Of a DNA stretch of 64,000 nucleotides, positions 3,615-63,316 are shown piece after piece. The notes below the pieces were generated by a model, which had not been told where the DNA came from, made no database searches, and worked only from the letters and a program-made list of their open reading frames with translations. The DNA lies in the NCBI GenBank assembly GCA_003034855.1, contig PZKD01000100.1, positions 1 through 64,000 on the forward strand. The letters are read 5' to 3'. The DNA is from an archaeon SCG-AAA382B04. Its GTDB lineage: Archaea > Halobacteriota > Methanonatronarchaeia > Methanonatronarchaeales > Methanonatronarchaeaceae. Position 1 is the first letter of the stretch. Each line of letters starts with the position of its first letter. The translations under genes and the position numbers were made by a program.

Positions 3615-3660
3615 TGGCGAAGAAGACTCCCTGCTTTAGCGGGGGGAGGAATTCGCCTTA
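3615..3660 (-). repeat. Right-end hairpin of the IsrB element
   Basis: Minus-strand sequence GGCGAATTCCTCCCC, GCTAAAGC, GGGAGTCTTCTTCGCC can fold into a hairpin with outer GGCGAA/TTCGCC pairing. This is the familiar terminal palindrome of IS605/IscB-type elements. It overlaps the isrB stop codon (3658-3660) by a few bases. Confidence 0.7.
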
Positions 3661-4683
3661 GTTCACCTCCTTGGATTTTACCATTAATCCTGTGTTTCTG
3701 TTGATTAAGTGTGTTTTGGATTTGACGAACTGGCCCAAGCGATTCCAGTCAAAATCCGAGACCGAGATACGGTTCTTGGTATAGCCTGAGACCCAGCCCC
3801 TAACCGTCTTATCTCCTTGCCTAGCTTCTACATAATCTCCTTTCCTATACTTAGATTGGGTAGTTGTACCACCATATCTTCTCCTAACTCCTCCTTTAGA
3901 TGGTTGCTCTAGGTGAAGTTTTCTTCTTGAGTATTTGGGCCTTGTAACTATATTGAAAGAAAAATCTGTTAGTTCTATATTCTCTAGAGCTAGGGAGCAT
4001 AGGGCTATGGCGTCGTGGGCGTGAGACTTGGGTGTTTTCTCCGCCTTATCACTGGTTTTTTCCAAACCCAATTCTTCTCTTTCCCTGGAGGTCTGCCATC
4101 CCTGGAATAACCTTACTGGTGCAATCTCTTTTAGCTCAGAAACTAACCAGTTTTTCCCTACTTCCACTTGACTAAAGTAACTTCCTTCCATGTGTTGGTA
4201 ATGGTTATAGGATACATCTTCTACCACGATTTGGGATATGGGAAAAACCTTGGACAGTTCTCTAACAACCCTTATCTCCAATTCCTTTCTTGCTTTGATA
4301 GAAGGAGCTAGCCAGTGCCCGCTTCGGTTATCAAATCTCTTTTCTCTCCTCCTGGTTTTTCTGTATCGCCTATTTCTTCTTCTTTCTCTGCGCTTATCCA
4401 TTCTCTCGCTAACTTGTTGAGGAAGCTCTAGGTTCAAGCCAATGAGTATAGCTTCCTTGGAAACTACTGCCACTCCAGAGAACTTGCTCCCAGGGTCCAG
4501 GCCTATTGCAATTTCTTGCTTTTCTCTGCCCATAGGCTCTTCCACTAACTGAACAGCAAACACACATAGCTCTGTCCTCACTGGCTCTGCCTTACCTCCT
4601 TTTAACCATCTTCTAGCCCTCTGTGGCTTGGTAGGCATCAGTGGTTCTCCATCAGGAGCTAATACAGGAACCCTCTCACACAT
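3658..4683 (-). CDS. isrB: IsrB-like RNA-guided nuclease without HNH domain
   Basis: The 341-residue protein has the IscB/IsrB order: an N-terminal PLMP domain (VLAPDGEPLMP at residues 7-17, then RARRWLKGGKA), RuvC-I with GLDPGS (D63), an Arg-rich bridge helix at about 96-118, RuvC-II with IVVEDVS (E155), and RuvC-III with SHAHDAIAL (D224). A Lys/Arg-rich C-terminal domain follows. Only about 65 residues separate RuvC-II and RuvC-III. They contain no HNH or zinc motif, but do contain the ELGLEKTSDKAEKT segment that precedes RuvC-III in this family. That makes it IsrB, a nickase in characterised members, rather than IscB. All three RuvC acidic residues are present, so it may be active. ATG at 4683 follows directly from the omega-RNA region, as in known loci. 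Confidence 0.85.
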   Translation of the reverse strand: MCERVPVLAPDGEPLMPTKPQRARRWLKGGKAEPVRTELCVFAVQLVEEPMGREKQEIAIGLDPGSKFSGVAVVSKEAILIGLNLELPQQVSERMDKRRERRRNRRYRKTRRREKRFDNRSGHWLAPSIKARKELEIRVVRELSKVFPISQIVVEDVSYNHYQHMEGSYFSQVEVGKNWLVSELKEIAPVRLFQGWQTSREREELGLEKTSDKAEKTPKSHAHDAIALCSLALENIELTDFSFNIVTRPKYSRRKLHLEQPSKGGVRRRYGGTTTQSKYRKGDYVEARQGDKTVRGWVSGYTKNRISVSDFDWNRLGQFVKSKTHLINRNTGLMVKSKEVN

Positions 4684-5036
4684 TTCTTATCTCCTTCTCT
4701 TTCTTCTTCTTCCTTCTTTCGTTTTTGTTTTATGGGGGTTTTGTTTGGGAGATAATCCCTTCAGCACTCCAGAGCTGGTGTTTGCCTTGTTTAGGCGTCC
4801 CCTCGCCAATGCCAATGCTAATGTAGTGGAGAGTGTGTCTCTCCCATAGTGGGGGCCCTCCAAGCCAGGGTTGGAGGCTTACAGAGCCTGGGACTGGGGA
4901 GGCACCCACAGGGTGTTTGTCTCTCCACGGCGTAGTCCTTAACTATCCTTTTTGGACGGGCTCAGGCTAGTCAACTCTTAGTTGGAGCCCTGGCTCTCCA
5001 AGCTCCTTCCTTCAGGGAGAAGAAGTTGACAAAATC
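4684..5036 (-). ncRNA. omega-RNA (guide RNA scaffold) of the IsrB element
   Basis: About 350 bases upstream of isrB contain no credible gene but many paired segments, and are much richer in GC than the surroundings. On the minus strand the blocks GGGTGCCTCCC (4907-4897), CCCAGGCTCTG (about 4892-4882) and ATTGGCGAGGGGA (about 4810-4798) recur in the same order at 19403, 19420 and 19506, upstream of another IscB-type gene. IscB/IsrB guide RNAs are encoded here, with the guide taken from the sequence just outside the left end. The predicted guide is therefore the minus-strand flank from roughly 5052 down to 5037. The exact RNA ends are not visible from sequence. Confidence 0.72.
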
Positions 5037-17590: not shown

Positions 17591-18463
17591 ATGAATCTAC
17601 TAGATATTATTAGTGCGCCTATCCATGCTGTTAGTGTTAAAGACCCTCTTTCACATGCTAGAAACGTCATGTTAAAAAAAGACATTAGTAGAGTCCTTGT
17701 CACTAATGAAAAAGATGAACTAGTTGGTGTATTAACAAAAACAGATATTACAAAAAGACTACAACAAAATGAGCCGAAATGGAAAAGGAGACCGATTGAT
17801 CGTATCCCTGTTAGCCGAATAATGACAGAAAATGTCGTGAAAGCAGATTCTTCCTCGGATATATCAGAGATAGCTCAATTAATGATCAAAAATAAGATAA
17901 GCGGTATTCCTATCATTGAAGATGGAACTGCTAACATTACCGAGAAAGGAGATCCAATAGGAATTGTCACCAAATTAGATTTAGTTAAATATCACTCTGA
18001 AACAGTCGATGACCGAAAAGTTAGTGATATATATACAGATGAAGTTATAGCTGTTCACCAATACCACACATTAAACAGAGTTATCGAAAAGATGGAGAGA
18101 AACGGTATTCATAGGATAATCGTTGAAAATGATGACGGCTCACCAACTGGTATCGTAACAAACTCAGACATTACCTTTGCCCATCTTAATAAACCACATG
18201 AAAAAGGATTAGCTGGAAATGATCTCAAGATGGTTAGGAAAAATTCAAAAGGCGGTAGAAAAGAAAAAAGAATAATTAAGAAAAACATGGTGGTTGCAAA
18301 AGATATAATGTCCTCACCTCTTATTAAAATGGAAAAAAACCAAAAAGCATCTGTTGTTGCTAAAACAATGATTAATGAAGGAATTAGTGGAATACCTATA
18401 ACTTCAGAAGATGAATTAGTTGGTATAATTACCAAAACAGATTTTGTTGAGGACTTGTGCTAA
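17591..18463 (+). CDS. Four-CBS-domain protein
   Basis: The 290-residue protein has CBS modules beginning near LLDIISAPIHAV, VSRIMTENVVKA, VSDIYTDEVIAV and AKDIMSSPLIKM. A basic linker (KNSKGGRKEKRIIKKN) separates the third and fourth modules. ATG lies 2 bases after the previous stop, and the next CBS gene's ATG lies 2 bases after this gene's stop, so the genes are probably one transcript. No other domain is present. Confidence 0.83.
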   Translation: MNLLDIISAPIHAVSVKDPLSHARNVMLKKDISRVLVTNEKDELVGVLTKTDITKRLQQNEPKWKRRPIDRIPVSRIMTENVVKADSSSDISEIAQLMIKNKISGIPIIEDGTANITEKGDPIGIVTKLDLVKYHSETVDDRKVSDIYTDEVIAVHQYHTLNRVIEKMERNGIHRIIVENDDGSPTGIVTNSDITFAHLNKPHEKGLAGNDLKMVRKNSKGGRKEKRIIKKNMVVAKDIMSSPLIKMEKNQKASVVAKTMINEGISGIPITSEDELVGIITKTDFVEDLC

Positions 18464-18465
18464 AT

Positions 18466-19270
18466 ATGAAAATTGATAACTATTTATCAAAAACAATAGC
18501 AGTAGACAAAGATGAAAACTTATCATTCGCTATGGAAAAGATGGAAAAGAACAATATACAGGACATCCCTGTAACCAATGAAGGAAAATACATAGGAAAA
18601 CTGTCCTACCTTAATCTAGCTGAAGAACTGGGTTCAATGAGAAAAGGAAATAAGCCAGCATCGCAGCTACATGTTGCCACTGCTTACAGCCAAAATGGTA
18701 GTCTACTCAGCTCTAAAACATCCTTAAAAGCGGCTGCTTCCGAATTAGTTACCAGAAATAGCTCTATTTTATTAGTTAAAGATAAAAAAAAAAAAAATTG
18801 GATCCTTAAAGGCAATTGATTTGTTGGATAAAATAGGCCTAAAGGGACGTGCTAAAGAAATTGTCAATCGAAATTTCACAACCATACCCTCCACTGAAAG
18901 AGTGGTAAACGCTAGAAGAAGAATAATCAATAGGGGAGAAGATGTTTTGGTGATAAGAGAAAATCAAGACATTTTAGGTATCTTAACCCCAAAAGAAATA
19001 GCTGAAGGAATGAATTCATTCAGGAGATTAGTTCCCGATGAAAAACAGGACTCAAGAATACGAAACCTCTTAGTAGAGGACATAATGGAAAATAATTATC
19101 TAAAAATGGATGAGGGCAGTTCAATAACAGATGTTTCTACCAATCTCTACAAAGAAAAAGAGAGACTAACACTAATTTCAGATGATTTAGGTGAAATAAA
19201 AGGATTTATTGATCAACTTGACTTGTTAAAAAAATGGTGTGGTGATGAAAGGTCAACTACCTCTCCCTAA
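18466..19270 (+). pseudogene. Four-CBS-domain gene split by a frameshift in an A14 run
   Basis: The first part (MKIDNYLSKTIAVDK, from ATG 18466) stops at 18819; the second part carries IDLLDKIGLKGRAKEIVNRNF onward to 19270. Between them lies a run of 14 A (18784-18797). With 13 A the frame reads DKKKKIGSLKAIDLL straight into the second part, giving one four-module CBS protein like its neighbours. The last codons (TTSP) lie inside the second omega-RNA element, whose left end is at about 19252, so the natural C-terminus is also lost. The frameshift may be a sequencing error, a slippage-switchable tract or real decay. Confidence 0.75.
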
Positions 19271-19569
19271 CTCACTTCGTTTGTGAGGAAGGGGCTTGAA
19301 AAAGTCTCGTAGAGGGGTGGGAGATTAGCCATATGCGATGTCACTCTAGGGAAGTGGCAAATGAACTACGTTCGGGACTAAAGTGTTTGACATACACCTT
19401 GCGGGTGCCTCCCAAGCCACCAGGCTCTGGAAACCATAGTGGACGACCTCACAGCGTCCTCTTTCCCAGGCTGTGCAACATCACTATGGTCTACGCCTGT
19501 CCCAACATTGGCGATGGGAACCTGACCCACATCTACGCGGAGATGACTCTTACGGGTCGTAAAAAATAG
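19252..19569 (+). ncRNA. Second omega-RNA locus
   Basis: This region begins GTCAACTACCTCTCCC with a hairpin (ACTCACTTCGTTTGTGAG, then GGAAGGGGCTTG), like the left end of the IsrB element (GTCAACTTCTTCTCCC then GGAAGGAGCTTG). It also carries GGGTGCCTCCC (19403-19413), CCAGGCTCTG (19420-19429), CACTATGG and ATTGGCGATGGGA (19506-19518) in the same order as that element. It is GC-rich and ends about 20 bases before a PLMP-domain start codon, the expected position for an IscB-type guide RNA. A 78-codon open frame over it (19333-19569) has no protein character. The guide would come from the flank just upstream of 19252. Confidence 0.7.
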
Positions 19570-19590
19570 TTAAAATAGTTTGTGAGAAAT

Positions 19591-19869
19591 ATGAAGAAAG
19601 TATTCGTACAAGATAAGAATGGAAAGCCATTGGACCCTACGAATCCAGCTAGAGCTAGAAAGCTCCTGGACAATGACAGGGCTAGGGTCGTAGAGAGACA
19701 GCCATTCACCATCAAAATCCTTTCTCAAAATTTAGAAAGAGTAGGAATAGATTCAGAAGCAACCAAAATTAACGAACTAAAAGATGGAAATTATAGAATT
19801 TTTATTGAAAAGCTCAAAAAATCAACCAATGACAAAACAAATTCGCTATTAAACGGAGGATTATGGTGA
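19591..19869 (+). pseudogene. IscB/IsrB remnant: PLMP domain fused to another gene's tail
   Basis: From ATG 19591 the first 45 or so residues ([20 protein letters not shown], then [23 protein letters not shown]) are a textbook PLMP/RRXRR domain. The expected RuvC domains are absent. From about residue 46 ([16 protein letters not shown]) the sequence turns Lys-rich and AT-rich like the host genes and ends 7 bases inside the DHH gene start. I read this as a nuclease gene truncated by deletion and joined in frame to the 3' end of a host gene that was coupled to the DHH gene. The host part is not identified. Whether the chimera is translated is unknown. Confidence 0.68.
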
Positions 19870-21272
19870 GTAAAATCAAAAAAATCCAAAAAAAGGCTAA
19901 CGAAATAAAAGAAGAAATTAAAGATCACAAAAAAGCACTTGTAGTGTCTCATATCGATACCGATGGGTTATGTGCAGCTGGAATTATTTCAAAAACCCTC
20001 AAAAGAGAGAACATTAGACATAATGTTAAATTCGTTAAAAGTCTAGATGAAAAATCAATCAAAAAAATAGGTGAAACAAAAACACCTTTAGTAATCTTTA
20101 CCGATTTAGGTAGCGGAAACTTTGACACACTAACTCAGTTCTCAAAAAACACAGTTATCTTAGACCACCATGAGCCAATATCCCAAAAAACAAATTTAGA
20201 TAACACTTATCAACTTAACCCCCATCTTTTCGGAGTTGATGGAGCAAGCGAATTATCAGGTTCTGGAACAGCCTTCTTTTTCTCAAGAGCCTTTAGTAAA
20301 AAAAATGAAGACTTAGCGGATTTAGCAATAATTGGAGGAGTTGGAGATTTACAAGATTCAAAGTTTGGAAAATTAAAAGGCTTAAACAGAAAAATCCTAA
20401 AAATTGGTTCTCAAAATGATGTTTTAAATTACAAAAAAGACTTAAAAATTTATGGAAAACAAACAAAACCTATCCATAAACTATTAGAATATTCAAGCGA
20501 TCCATACATACCAGGAATAAGTGGAAATGGAAGAGAAAGCTTAGAACTACTAAAAGAGCTAGATATAGATTTAAAAAACGAAAAAGGATGGAGAAAATGG
20601 ATCGATTTAACTAAAGAAGAAAAAAGAAAGATAATATCAAAACTAATGCATTATTGCCTAGTAAATGGAGTTCCTAAAAAAGAAATAGAAAGAATGATAG
20701 GAGAAGTTTATGTGTTAAAAAATGAAGAAAAAGGAACGGAACTGAGAGACGCTAGTGAGTTCTCAACGCTCCTAAATGCTACTGCACGGTACGAAAAATC
20801 AAAAATAGGACTAAAAATTTGCCTAGGAAACAGAAAAGAAGCATATAAAAAAGCTAAAAAATTATTGAGAAACCACAGAAAAAATATTGTTAATGGATTA
20901 TCTCTAATAGAAGAAAATATAGAAGAATATCCCCACCTACAGTTCTTTCATGGAAAAGATAAAATAAGAGATACAATTGTTGGAATTATAGCAGGAATGG
21001 CCTATAACACCCCTCATATAGACAGAAAAAAACCAATCATAGCCTTTGCAAACAAAAACGAGGAAGAAATTAAGGTTTCAGGAAGAGCTACTCAAAAACA
21101 CATAAACAATGGCCTTAACCTAGGTGATATTTTAAGAAAAGCATCTAAAAAAGTAGGTGGATCAGGAGGAGGTCACAACATAGCTGCTGGAGCAACAATC
21201 CCTAAAGGAAAAGAAAAGAAATTTTTATCTATATCAAATAAAAAAATAGAAAAGCAATTAAACAATACCTAA
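19863..21272 (+). CDS. DHH-family phosphoesterase, archaeal RecJ-like
   Basis: The 469-residue protein has the DHH core, with [13 protein letters not shown] near residue 28, TDLGSGN, and LDHHEPI as the name-giving motif near residue 100. The C-terminal DHHA1 domain ends with [16 protein letters not shown]. This is the layout of archaeal RecJ-like nucleases, including the GINS-associated nuclease GAN and its paralogues, which degrade single-stranded DNA or RNA. Which paralogue this is cannot be decided. ATG overlaps the upstream chimeric frame by 7 bases and a GGAGG site lies just ahead. A nuclease-like gene follows 11 bases downstream. Confidence 0.85.
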
Positions 21273-23169: not shown

Positions 23170-24155
23170 ATGCGAATCACCAAGAAGAAGGCGAGGGAAC
23201 TCTACGAGGTCTTAGATCAGGAGCGGGAAAAGATTCGTGAAGAGAACGAGGAGGAGGGAGAGGATGTACCTTCCTCCACCCTCTGGGAGCGAGAGAGGAA
23301 GAAGGTTGTGGAGAGGCTTCAGAAGCTGCCTGACCTAGTGAAGGAGGCTGCCTCTCGTTTAACGGTGGAGCGTGGCCGCGGAAGAAAACCTAAACTGGAT
23401 CCCGAGGAGAAGACGATGCTGTTCCTGTTCGCTCGCCTTAACGATAAAAGCAACAGGGATATGGAGGCAACGCTTGCTTTTCTTGGTCCCGCATTTGATG
23501 TGGACATAAGCTACAAGACCATTGAAAGATTGTACTCGGATGAGGAGGTGAAGCTGGTGCTTCACAACCTGTTCGTTCTTCTACTGGAAGAAGAGGACGT
23601 GTCCGGGAACTGCTCCGGTGACGGAACCGGTTATTCCCTCCAGACGGGAAACATTACCGCTCCGACTCCAAGGAGGATGACTCAAAGGAGAATGGGAAGA
23701 GCTACAGATACGTGTTCCGCCTAGTGGATCTAGAGACAGGGATGTACGTGGCCTATGGCTACTCCGGTCAGTCGGAGAAGCAGGCCTTCAAGAAGGCTCT
23801 GACCTTCCTGAGGCGGGAGGAGATTCCCCTCAAATCGGTTCGCCTGGACAAGTATTACTCGAACAGAAAGAATCTGCAAAGGCTGGGGAAGGATGTAGAG
23901 AAGTTCGTTCTCCCCAAGAAGAACCTCTCAACCTTCGGGGCGGAGTGGTACCGTGTCCTTAACAGAATTGCCGAAGACCCATATGGCTACCTAAGACAGT
24001 ATTTCAAGCGTGAACTCTCCGAGAGCTACACTGCAGCGGACAAGGAACGTTTTGGAGGAAAAATCAGGCAGCGTCGAGAGGACAGAAAAGAGATGGCGTG
24101 TCTTGGTACAGCCGTTCTACACAACCTCTTCAGCGTGCGAATATCCCTAAATTAA
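23170..24155 (+). CDS. DDE-type transposase in two frames joined at GGGAAAC
   Basis: The first frame (23170-23724) carries a helical DNA-binding region (KKKARELYEVLDQEREKI), a conserved helical block with DKSNRDMEATLAFLG, and the start of the catalytic core (SGDGTGYSLQTG). The remaining core (YRYVFRLVDLETGMYVAYGY, then VRLDKYYSNRK and GTAVLHNLF) continues in the -1 frame to 24155. The frames overlap from 23622 to 23724. Within the overlap lies G GGA AAC (23646-23652) in the zero frame, a classical -1 slippery heptamer; slippage there gives ..GNHYRSDSKEDD.. without loss. This may be programmed frameshifting, as in many IS, or a simple indel. ATG 23170 follows the TATA-like box. Confidence 0.75.
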
Positions 24156-60024: not shown

Positions 60025-60720
60025 TTATTCCTCCTCTTCAATTTTCTTTTGTTTGCTTAGATATTCCTTGATCATTTGGGGAAAAGAACTGGAGCGTACA
60101 AACCTTAATCCAAGTCTTTCAGCCCATTTTTCTATACCATCATCAGCCCCAACTACAGCAGCATCTAATTCTTTAGCTAATAATAAGACATCGATGTCTG
60201 GTGCACTGTCGAGTATTCCATATCTTAGAGCATCTCTATATTTATCTCTAAAGTCGCTAACGGTTCCTCCAACCATCTCTCGCTTTACCTCTTTTTCAAT
60301 TTCTTCATCACTCAAATTCTCGGCATCAGTATCTAAGCAAGCCATTGAAGCTTCCCAAATAGCGTCTTCAGCGACATTCATTCCTTTGTTTATTCTTCCA
60401 CGCATATAGTCAACATATTCATAAAATATACCGGCCGGGATATCTACTTCGTATCTATTAGGGGTTTTTTTAACTAGCCATGTATCAACTTTTGCTTCAA
60501 CTTCCTCTCCACACTCATATCTGTTTATAAATTCAGTTATCTCTTTATAAACAGTTGGATAGGGAACATAACAACTAATATTTAGTTTTAATCTAGCTTG
60601 AGAAATTAAGTCTAATATTTCACTCATTCCTTCACACAAGGAATCATAGCCTTCTTTTTTACGAGTTTCAACATCCGTTAATGCTGTTGTATCTAAAACA
60701 AAGTATTGCCTTTCTACCAA
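60025..60720 (-). CDS. HARP-type protein-only RNase P (RNA ligase partner family)
   Basis: The 231-residue PIN-domain protein matches the family once annotated RNA ligase partner: [20 protein letters not shown] near the start, a helical insert ([20 protein letters not shown]), and [33 protein letters not shown] with the acidic PIN residues. Homologs of Aquifex RNase P (HARP) cut tRNA 5' leaders. Archaea usually also carry the RNA-based enzyme, so its role here is unclear. The stop is 50 bases from hisS, same strand. Confidence 0.88.
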
Positions 60721-61501: not shown

Positions 61502-63316
61502 AAGCTTTAGGATGTTTCTCCCTCCATTATGTATAGGCGAAATATAGGCAAAAAACCTATAAATTTATAAGGGAGGAGACCATTTGTGTATATATGCACC
61601 TGAAGAAAGTGACCAGCAAATACAAGGATAAGACCTACGAATACGCCCAGATAGTCAAGTCAGTCAGGAGAGAAGACGGAAAATCCTCCATCAAAGTCGT
61701 CAAAAGCCTTGGCAGAATAGAGTCAGAAGAAGACTGGAAGAAAGCTAGGAAGATCAAGGAGGCAATGGAAAAGGACGAGGAGGTTGTAAGGCTCAAGGAC
61801 ATCAAGATCAAGCAACAGTTTGAACTCGGCCTATGTTGGGTTTCTCGGGAGCTGTGGGAACGGTGCGGGATAGGGAAAGCCCTCCAGGAGAGCTTGAAGG
61901 ACAGGAAGCCCGAGTTCGATCCGAAAGAGATCATCTTTCTATTAACAGTTAATCGGCTGTACAGACCCGGCTCCGACCTCTCCGCCTACCGCTGGATCCG
62001 GGACAGGGCGTGGCCAAGAAAGGAGATCAAGCCACAGTGGATTTACCGGACCCTGGATCTACTGGCCGAGGAGAAAGAACAGATAGAGGAAAAGTTGCTT
62101 GAAAAACTAGAGAAGGAGCTTGATCTGGACCTGGGTCTTGTCTTCTACGACCTAACCTCTAGCTACTTCGAGGGCAGAGGCCCTGAGCTTGCTGAGTTCG
62201 GCTATTCGAGAGACCACAGAAAGGACAGGAAGCAACTGGTTCTCGGCGTGCTAATGGCCGACGGAATCCCCATAGCCCACCGACTCTGGCCCGGGAACAG
62301 GAAGGATGAAACGACCTTAAGAAAAACTGTCGAGGATCTCAGAGAGAGGTTCGGGATCCAAGAGGTCGTCTTTGTTGCTGATCGGGGAGTGATCAGCAAG
62401 GACAACCTTGAGGAGCTGGAGCAGAACTTTGACTACATCCTCGCCACCCCTCGCAGGAAGAGCAAGCTTTCGAAGGAACTTCTCAGGAAAGAAGTTCCAG
62501 GCTCTAGAGAGCAGAGAGCCAGGGAAGTCCACCAAGAGAGAGAAAAAGGGAAGAGATGGATCCTCTGCCTTAACGAGGACAGGAGGGAGAAAGACCTGCA
62601 AAGGCTGGAGGAGGCGGTTGAGGAGGGAAAGAAGATGCTTCAGGATCTAGAGAAGCGGTACGAGTCCAAGGGACGTGGACGCCCCATGTCCCAAAAAGGT
62701 GTGTGGAAAAGAATCGAGAAAAAACTTGGAAGGAACCAGAGGTTGTTCGAGGTAGAGGCAAAGGACCAGGGAACCAGGGAGCTCAGCTGGGAGCTGGACC
62801 AGAAAGCTTTAAAGTTCGAGAGATCGATCCAGGGGAAGTTCCTCTTGGTCACCACAAGCGATCTGGAGCCGGTTAAGGTGGTGGAGGAGTACAAGAACCT
62901 AGAGGACGTGGAGCGTGCGTTCGACGACTTGAAGAACCTGCTGAAGGTTAGGCCGATCTACCATCAAACGGAAAAGAGGACGAGAGGGCATCTGTTTGTA
63001 TCCATTCTCTCCCTTCTCCTAGAGAAGCTTATGGAGAGAGAGACGAACAGAACCTTTAGAGACCTGAAAGAGGAGATGGAGTCCCTGAAAGTCAACCGAA
63101 TCGGGGTTTGTGGAGAAGAAATCTACAAAAGGAATTCCCTGGATTCGGAGCAGGAGAAAATACTGGAAGGCCTCGAGACTGAAAAGCCACCGAAAATACT
63201 GGCAAATGTATAGGCAAAAAATAGCTTCTTAAAAAGAACAGTCTAAACACCTATTTTAAAAGAAAAAAGCCTTCTCCAGCCCAAAATCTTAATAAATCAG
63301 AAGTGTTAAAGATGAG
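61465..63316 (+). mobile_element. IS1634-type insertion sequence
   Basis: Inverted repeats CTCA(C/T)CTTTAACACTT lie at 61465-61480 and 63301-63316 with one mismatch in 16. A direct repeat AAGATA flanks them (61459-61464 and 63317-63322), the 6-bp size usual for this family. Length is 1852 bp. The single gene is the 539-residue transposase. GC-rich codon use contrasts with the host. TATAGGC occurs twice near the left and once at the right, next to the gene stop. Confidence 0.88.
61594..63213 (+). CDS. IS1634-family DDE transposase
   Basis: The 539-residue transposase has DDE regions LVFYDLTSSYFEGRGPELAE (first Asp), VVFVADRGVISKDNLEELEQ (second Asp) and EDVERAFDDLKNLLKVRPIY with the ERAF-type Glu region and RTRGHLFVSILSLLLEKLM at the end. 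The insertion of about 180 residues between the second and third is normal for the family. ATG 61594 lies 22 bases after the TATAAATT element of the left end. No frameshift or stop is seen, so it may be active. Confidence 0.92.
   Translation: MHLKKVTSKYKDKTYEYAQIVKSVRREDGKSSIKVVKSLGRIESEEDWKKARKIKEAMEKDEEVVRLKDIKIKQQFELGLCWVSRELWERCGIGKALQESLKDRKPEFDPKEIIFLLTVNRLYRPGSDLSAYRWIRDRAWPRKEIKPQWIYRTLDLLAEEKEQIEEKLLEKLEKELDLDLGLVFYDLTSSYFEGRGPELAEFGYSRDHRKDRKQLVLGVLMADGIPIAHRLWPGNRKDETTLRKTVEDLRERFGIQEVVFVADRGVISKDNLEELEQNFDYILATPRRKSKLSKELLRKEVPGSREQRAREVHQEREKGKRWILCLNEDRREKDLQRLEEAVEEGKKMLQDLEKRYESKGRGRPMSQKGVWKRIEKKLGRNQRLFEVEAKDQGTRELSWELDQKALKFERSIQGKFLLVTTSDLEPVKVVEEYKNLEDVERAFDDLKNLLKVRPIYHQTEKRTRGHLFVSILSLLLEKLMERETNRTFRDLKEEMESLKVNRIGVCGEEIYKRNSLDSEQEKILEGLETEKPPKILANV

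Follow-up and report, generated by a model that had tools for sequence, protein, structure and literature searches.

A PLMP–RNA ligase chimera beside an omega-RNA in the archaeon SCG-AAA382B04, a probable scar of IscB element insertion and deletion

Among the systems closest to the locus studied here are IscB/ISC (OMEGA) elements with their HEARO omega-RNA, for one of which (OrufIscB) an ATAAA-type target-adjacent motif (TAM), NTAAA, was measured (PMC13180657), and the Rnl3/Pab1020/MthRnl type of ATP-dependent RNA ligase (TIGR01209, PF18330; solved relatives 5D1O and 2VUG). In the window, i.e., the whole analysed stretch of 64,000 nucleotides, one locus combines parts of both. With the IscB elements it shares the left end, the omega-RNA fold, the PLMP domain and a predicted ATAAA-type motif, but it has lost RuvC, bridge helix, HNH, TAM-interacting domain and right end by deletion. 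With the ligases it shares the place between a CBS-domain gene and recJ as well as the last 48 residues, including the retained STNDKT and GGLW motifs; it lacks, however, the nucleotidyl-transferase domain and most of Lig_C, and cannot be a ligase. The chimera is very probably the scar of two events, insertion of an IscB element into the ligase gene and a later deletion, and thus debris rather than a captured regulator; this reading is drawn from a single assembly, fragmented into 132 contigs, and from one genome of the genus.

The locus begins with the upstream CBS-domain gene (18457–19251, + strand; assigned from its ORFs, a CBS Pfam match on the second ORF and the gene order of a relative), which is present as two ORFs broken by a run of 14 A at 18784–18797 (sequencing error, slippage or pseudogene). 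The CBS reading frame enters the element and terminates with ...GDERSTTSP at 19270. The left end of the element and the omega-RNA occupy 19252–19590 (+), up to the PLMP start codon. In agreement with the preliminary description of a full-length omega-RNA, positions 1–211 of the HEARO model (RF02033) match 19252–19526 (+) in cmscan (37.2 bits, E 6.1e-6). This score falls below the gathering score of 83, as do those of its siblings beside IscB genes of the same genome, which are equally low (25–55 bits); 11 further HEARO matches in this genome score 22–87 bits, some of them adjoining IscB genes.

The chimeric ORF starts with ATG at 19591 (alternatively with GTG at 19582) and encodes a product of 92 amino acids. 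Its first 44 codons (19591–19722, +) represent the PLMP domain of IscB: PF14239 (RRXRR/IscB) matches approximately the first 48 residues (E 5e-13), and NF040563 (guided_IscB) matches at its N-terminal model positions 1–47 (about 1–48). After PLMP codon 44 the sequence is that of the ligase, and the RuvC and HNH nuclease domains are missing. The end of the Rnl3/Pab1020-type ligase gene, its last 48 codons plus the stop codon (19723–19869, +; identified by tblastn and TIGR01209), follows in frame, and the stop at 19869 overlaps the start at 19863 of an intact archaeal RecJ-family (DHH) gene (19863–21272, +; NF053576, 605 bits). A possible Shine-Dalgarno sequence of recJ, GGAGG at 19855–19859, falls within the ligase tail. 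The PLMP-only protein, its in-frame host tail and its coupling to the DHH gene, all proposed beforehand, are thus borne out by the profile matches and by the overlap at 19863–19869.

The tail is identified by several matches to the ligase C-terminus. Residues 44–92 of the chimera align without gaps to residues 329–377 of the 377-aa RNA ligase of Ca. Methanohalarchaeum thermophilum HMET1, a member of the same family (24 of 49 residues identical, E 1e-14), and positions 319–373 of the 375 in TIGR01209 match as well (E 4e-5). Of Lig_C (PF18330) only profile positions 66–125 are matched, with 20–22 bits and thus under the 25-bit cut-off. A tblastn search of the genome with the HMET1 ligase yielded a single match, residues 330–377 at 19723–19866 (50 % identity, E 1e-9), and no other ligase remnant, so that a ligase moved to another place in this genome was not found. 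Neither the chimeric ORF nor the genome contains the RNA_ligase nucleotidyl-transferase domain (PF09414), which the HMET1 ligase possesses. Since the tail matches the ligase C-terminus and the genome retains only residues 330–377, the missing N-terminus is, as judged from sequence, that of the Rnl3/Pab1020-type ligase gene and not that of the DHH gene. The latter is full length, which rules out the tail as its lost N-terminus.

The comparison with related loci suggested in the preliminary description points to the same gene. In HMET1, a CBS gene, the intact ligase gene and a DHH gene follow one another with overlapping ends, and in a third member of the class Methanonatronarchaeia, to which the window belongs, CBS and ligase genes adjoin. 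Adjacency of ligase and DHH genes as a conserved trait was not found in wider archaea, HMET1 being the only case. The deletion is read indirectly, the ancestral order being that of HMET1 and not of this species' own pre-insertion allele.

The parent elements are to be sought among HNH-type IscB elements of the same genome. The omega-RNA had been thought to parallel most closely the intact element within the window, a separate IsrB-like element at 3658–5030 (−; omega-RNA 4791–5030 plus a 341-aa ORF). The two omega-RNAs are only 79 % identical, whereas identity to the HNH-bearing IscB elements on contigs C78 and C111 reaches 95.7 %, which rules out the IsrB-like element as parent. Apart from a frameshifting one-base insertion in C78/C111, the PLMP protein of the chimera equals theirs, and all four nucleotide differences to C78 in this domain are synonymous. 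Window and C78 agree through ...ACCATCAAAATCCTT (19722); thereafter C78 continues into RuvC/HNH and the window into the ligase. A third element (C89) encodes an intact 404-aa IscB with RRXRR and HNH domains, its omega-RNA being 91 % identical to that of the chimera locus. Continuation of the PLMP segment into ordinary element sequence, which had been named as an observation that would speak against an unusual locus, is accordingly found within the same genome, where C78, C111 and C89 all proceed from PLMP into RuvC/HNH. As a configuration the locus is ordinary transposon debris. Missing from it are PLMP codon 45 through approximately ligase codon 329. No right end of the element was recognised downstream of the junction above shuffled sequences (score 24 versus a shuffle mean of 22), by which a MITE-like element with its own right end was ruled out.

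Both C78 and C111 encode HNH-type IscB in frameshifted form. They are near-identical copies that carry the same frameshifts at different sites, suggesting that a broken copy moved in trans. The left end of the C89 element (2373, −) lies at the 3' end of a PCNA-like gene; as with the CBS gene at the chimera locus, the left end of the omega-RNA now supplies the final codons (STTSP) of that gene.

The siblings at C78:57805 and C111:21014 are identical from GTCAAC onward and diverge exactly in the base before it, which places the left end of the element at 19252. The element thus begins seven bases into the ligase ORF (ATGAAAG|GTCAAC), leaving two codons and one base of the ligase 5' end (ATGAAAG, 19245–19251, +). 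The window sequence to the left of the element, ...GTGATGAAAG, can be aligned to the beginning of the HMET1 ligase gene, ATGCAAGACAAATGG; by-eye alignment sets ATGAAAG beside ATGCAAG|ACAAATGG (MQDKW...) of HMET1. In both C78 and C111, ATAAAA follows the right end, and the same motif occurs in mini-elements of the family. If the ancestral codons 3–4 were GAT AAA (Asp-Lys; GAC AAA in HMET1), the pre-insertion site would have been ATGAAAG|ATAAATGG, and the uninserted site with intact ligase is predicted as ATGAAAGATAAA(TGG).

From these boundaries, a sequence of events may be reconstructed. An HNH-type IscB OMEGA element would have inserted seven bases into the Rnl3 ligase gene of a CBS–ligase–RecJ cluster, immediately in front of an ATAAA sequence predicted to be its target-adjacent motif. 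A later deletion would then have taken out the rest of the element, PLMP codon 45 through the right end, along with the ligase codons up to approximately 329. The junction would have come to lie in frame by chance, giving the present order of omega-RNA, PLMP, 48 ligase codons and recJ. The order of the events and the pre-insertion ATAAA site are inferred, whereas the analysis showed what each half is, how the genes are ancestrally ordered, as seen in a relative, where the element begins on the left, that the rest of the ligase is gone and that parent elements exist in the same genome. The chance of an in-frame junction is one in three, which is mildly suggestive of something more and counts against the scar reading. 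Apart from providing the context in which recJ is translated, the 92-aa product presumably lacks a function. The omega-RNA can probably still fold and may be part of the operon transcript, with no nuclease in cis.

A consensus structure derived from 11 related omega-RNAs comprises 60 pairs, of which 12 show compensatory changes. The chimera-locus copy keeps 60 of 60 pairs (C78 57, C89 56), a count that favours this copy since it was part of the consensus alignment. Over about 300 nt it shows a single private substitution, located in a variable loop. This one substitution and the exclusively synonymous PLMP differences suggest that the scar is young, and nothing in it appears to call for a function. 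Youth explains the intactness of the omega-RNA, which consequently needs no selection, and selection read from that intactness is unsupported with one private substitution only. The synonymous differences most simply reflect selection on the intact parents rather than on the chimera.

Against this background, three other readings were weighed. The orphan omega-RNA might be loaded in trans by the intact IscB of C89 and direct cutting of ligase-positive alleles entering by recombination, which would be compatible with the scar. Its guide, AAATGGTGTGGTGATGAAAG, found nowhere else in the window, would match the CBS/ligase allele that lacks the element, with the predicted ATAAA motif coming right after the match. 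The complete set of consensus pairs, the uniqueness of the guide and the presence of an intact 404-aa nuclease whose own omega-RNA is 91 % identical argue for such a role; youth alone, however, accounts for the intact omega-RNA, and the target in ligase-positive conspecifics is inferred. We regard this reading as unlikely, and slightly more so the consequence that, by cutting incoming ligase alleles, the defunct element would prevent its host from regaining the gene that it had destroyed.

While debris fits the scar evidence, the alternative of a captured regulatory RNA, also raised beforehand, found no positive support. In its most specific form, the PLMP–ligase-tail peptide would bind the 3' hairpins of the omega-RNA and thereby tune translation of recJ. 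The PLMP domain of IsrB is known to contact terminal omega-RNA hairpins holding a Shine-Dalgarno sequence (PMC9581776), the chimera keeps the PLMP core and itself overlaps the RecJ start, and for the 92-aa product the best structure model reaches moderate confidence (pLDDT 78, pTM 0.54). Four other models reached a pLDDT of only 63–67, so the structure is weakly supported; moreover, no trace of selection is seen, the locus is too recent and PLMP-only remnants elsewhere look like debris. Regulation of this kind is very improbable. Equally improbable is a misjoining of two repeats during assembly: multiple copies of the element are present in the genome, and the assembly consists of 132 contigs, but the junction lies inside a 215-kb contig, is in frame and places the ligase tail at the syntenic position. 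The missing ligase part is on no contig, and the copies differ often enough to be distinguished.

PLMP-only leftovers appear, by sequence, to recur (C1:74.4 kb of this genome and the genomes G251 and G236), these cases being too few to define a recurrent break as a class. The locus at C1:74.2–74.9 kb (−) has a second omega-RNA, a PLMP-only ORF (approximately 70 aa) and an apparent right-end hairpin followed by ATGA. In G251 (contig C24), a strong HEARO match (145 bits) accompanies a 42-aa PLMP ORF, with an IscB-like C-terminal part in an ORF of its own, representing another internal deletion from the PLMP boundary. A 277-aa ORF of genome G296 (contig C9) starts with a PLMP-like N-terminus and continues as a long non-nuclease stretch, with no HEARO match beside it. 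Omega-RNA-only mini-elements (C54, C67 and C1:144.7–145.0 kb in this genome; C1:290 kb in HMET1) resemble the chimera locus in having an omega-RNA without nuclease. With their right-end hairpin and ATAAA, they have the appearance of complete non-autonomous elements, whereas the chimera locus has kept the left end and lost the right one; the mini-elements are apparently mobile derivatives of IscB elements.

The value of the scar lies in the gene that was broken and not in the configuration. HARP, a protein-only RNase P, is reported to co-occur with this ligase: 89 % of HARP genomes carry the ligase, and all ligase genomes carry HARP (PMC12153264). The HARP (RNA ligase partner protein) gene of this genome is intact (60025–60720, −; TIGR03875, 285 bits). 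Among 60 relatives sampled, HARP matches over the cut-off and an intact Lig_C coincide in 19 of 19 genomes; the present genome is the sole exception, i.e., the one of 20 HARP-positive genomes without an intact Rnl3 ligase. That loss of the ligase is tolerable follows from the knockout in T. kodakarensis, which grows normally while circular C/D box RNAs are lost (PMC9014305). The genome is therefore probably a naturally arisen, recent ligase knockout that retains HARP, a setting in which to ask for the roles of HARP and of C/D RNA circularisation without the ligase, and a fresh natural test of the HARP–ligase link proposed in PMC12153264. The locus also illustrates the way in which OMEGA elements erase genes, leaving behind orphan guides that are still able to fold.

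Two transposase-like genes, judged by reading, are present elsewhere in the window, one split between two frames (23170–24155) and a second, apparently full-length ORF at 61594–63213.
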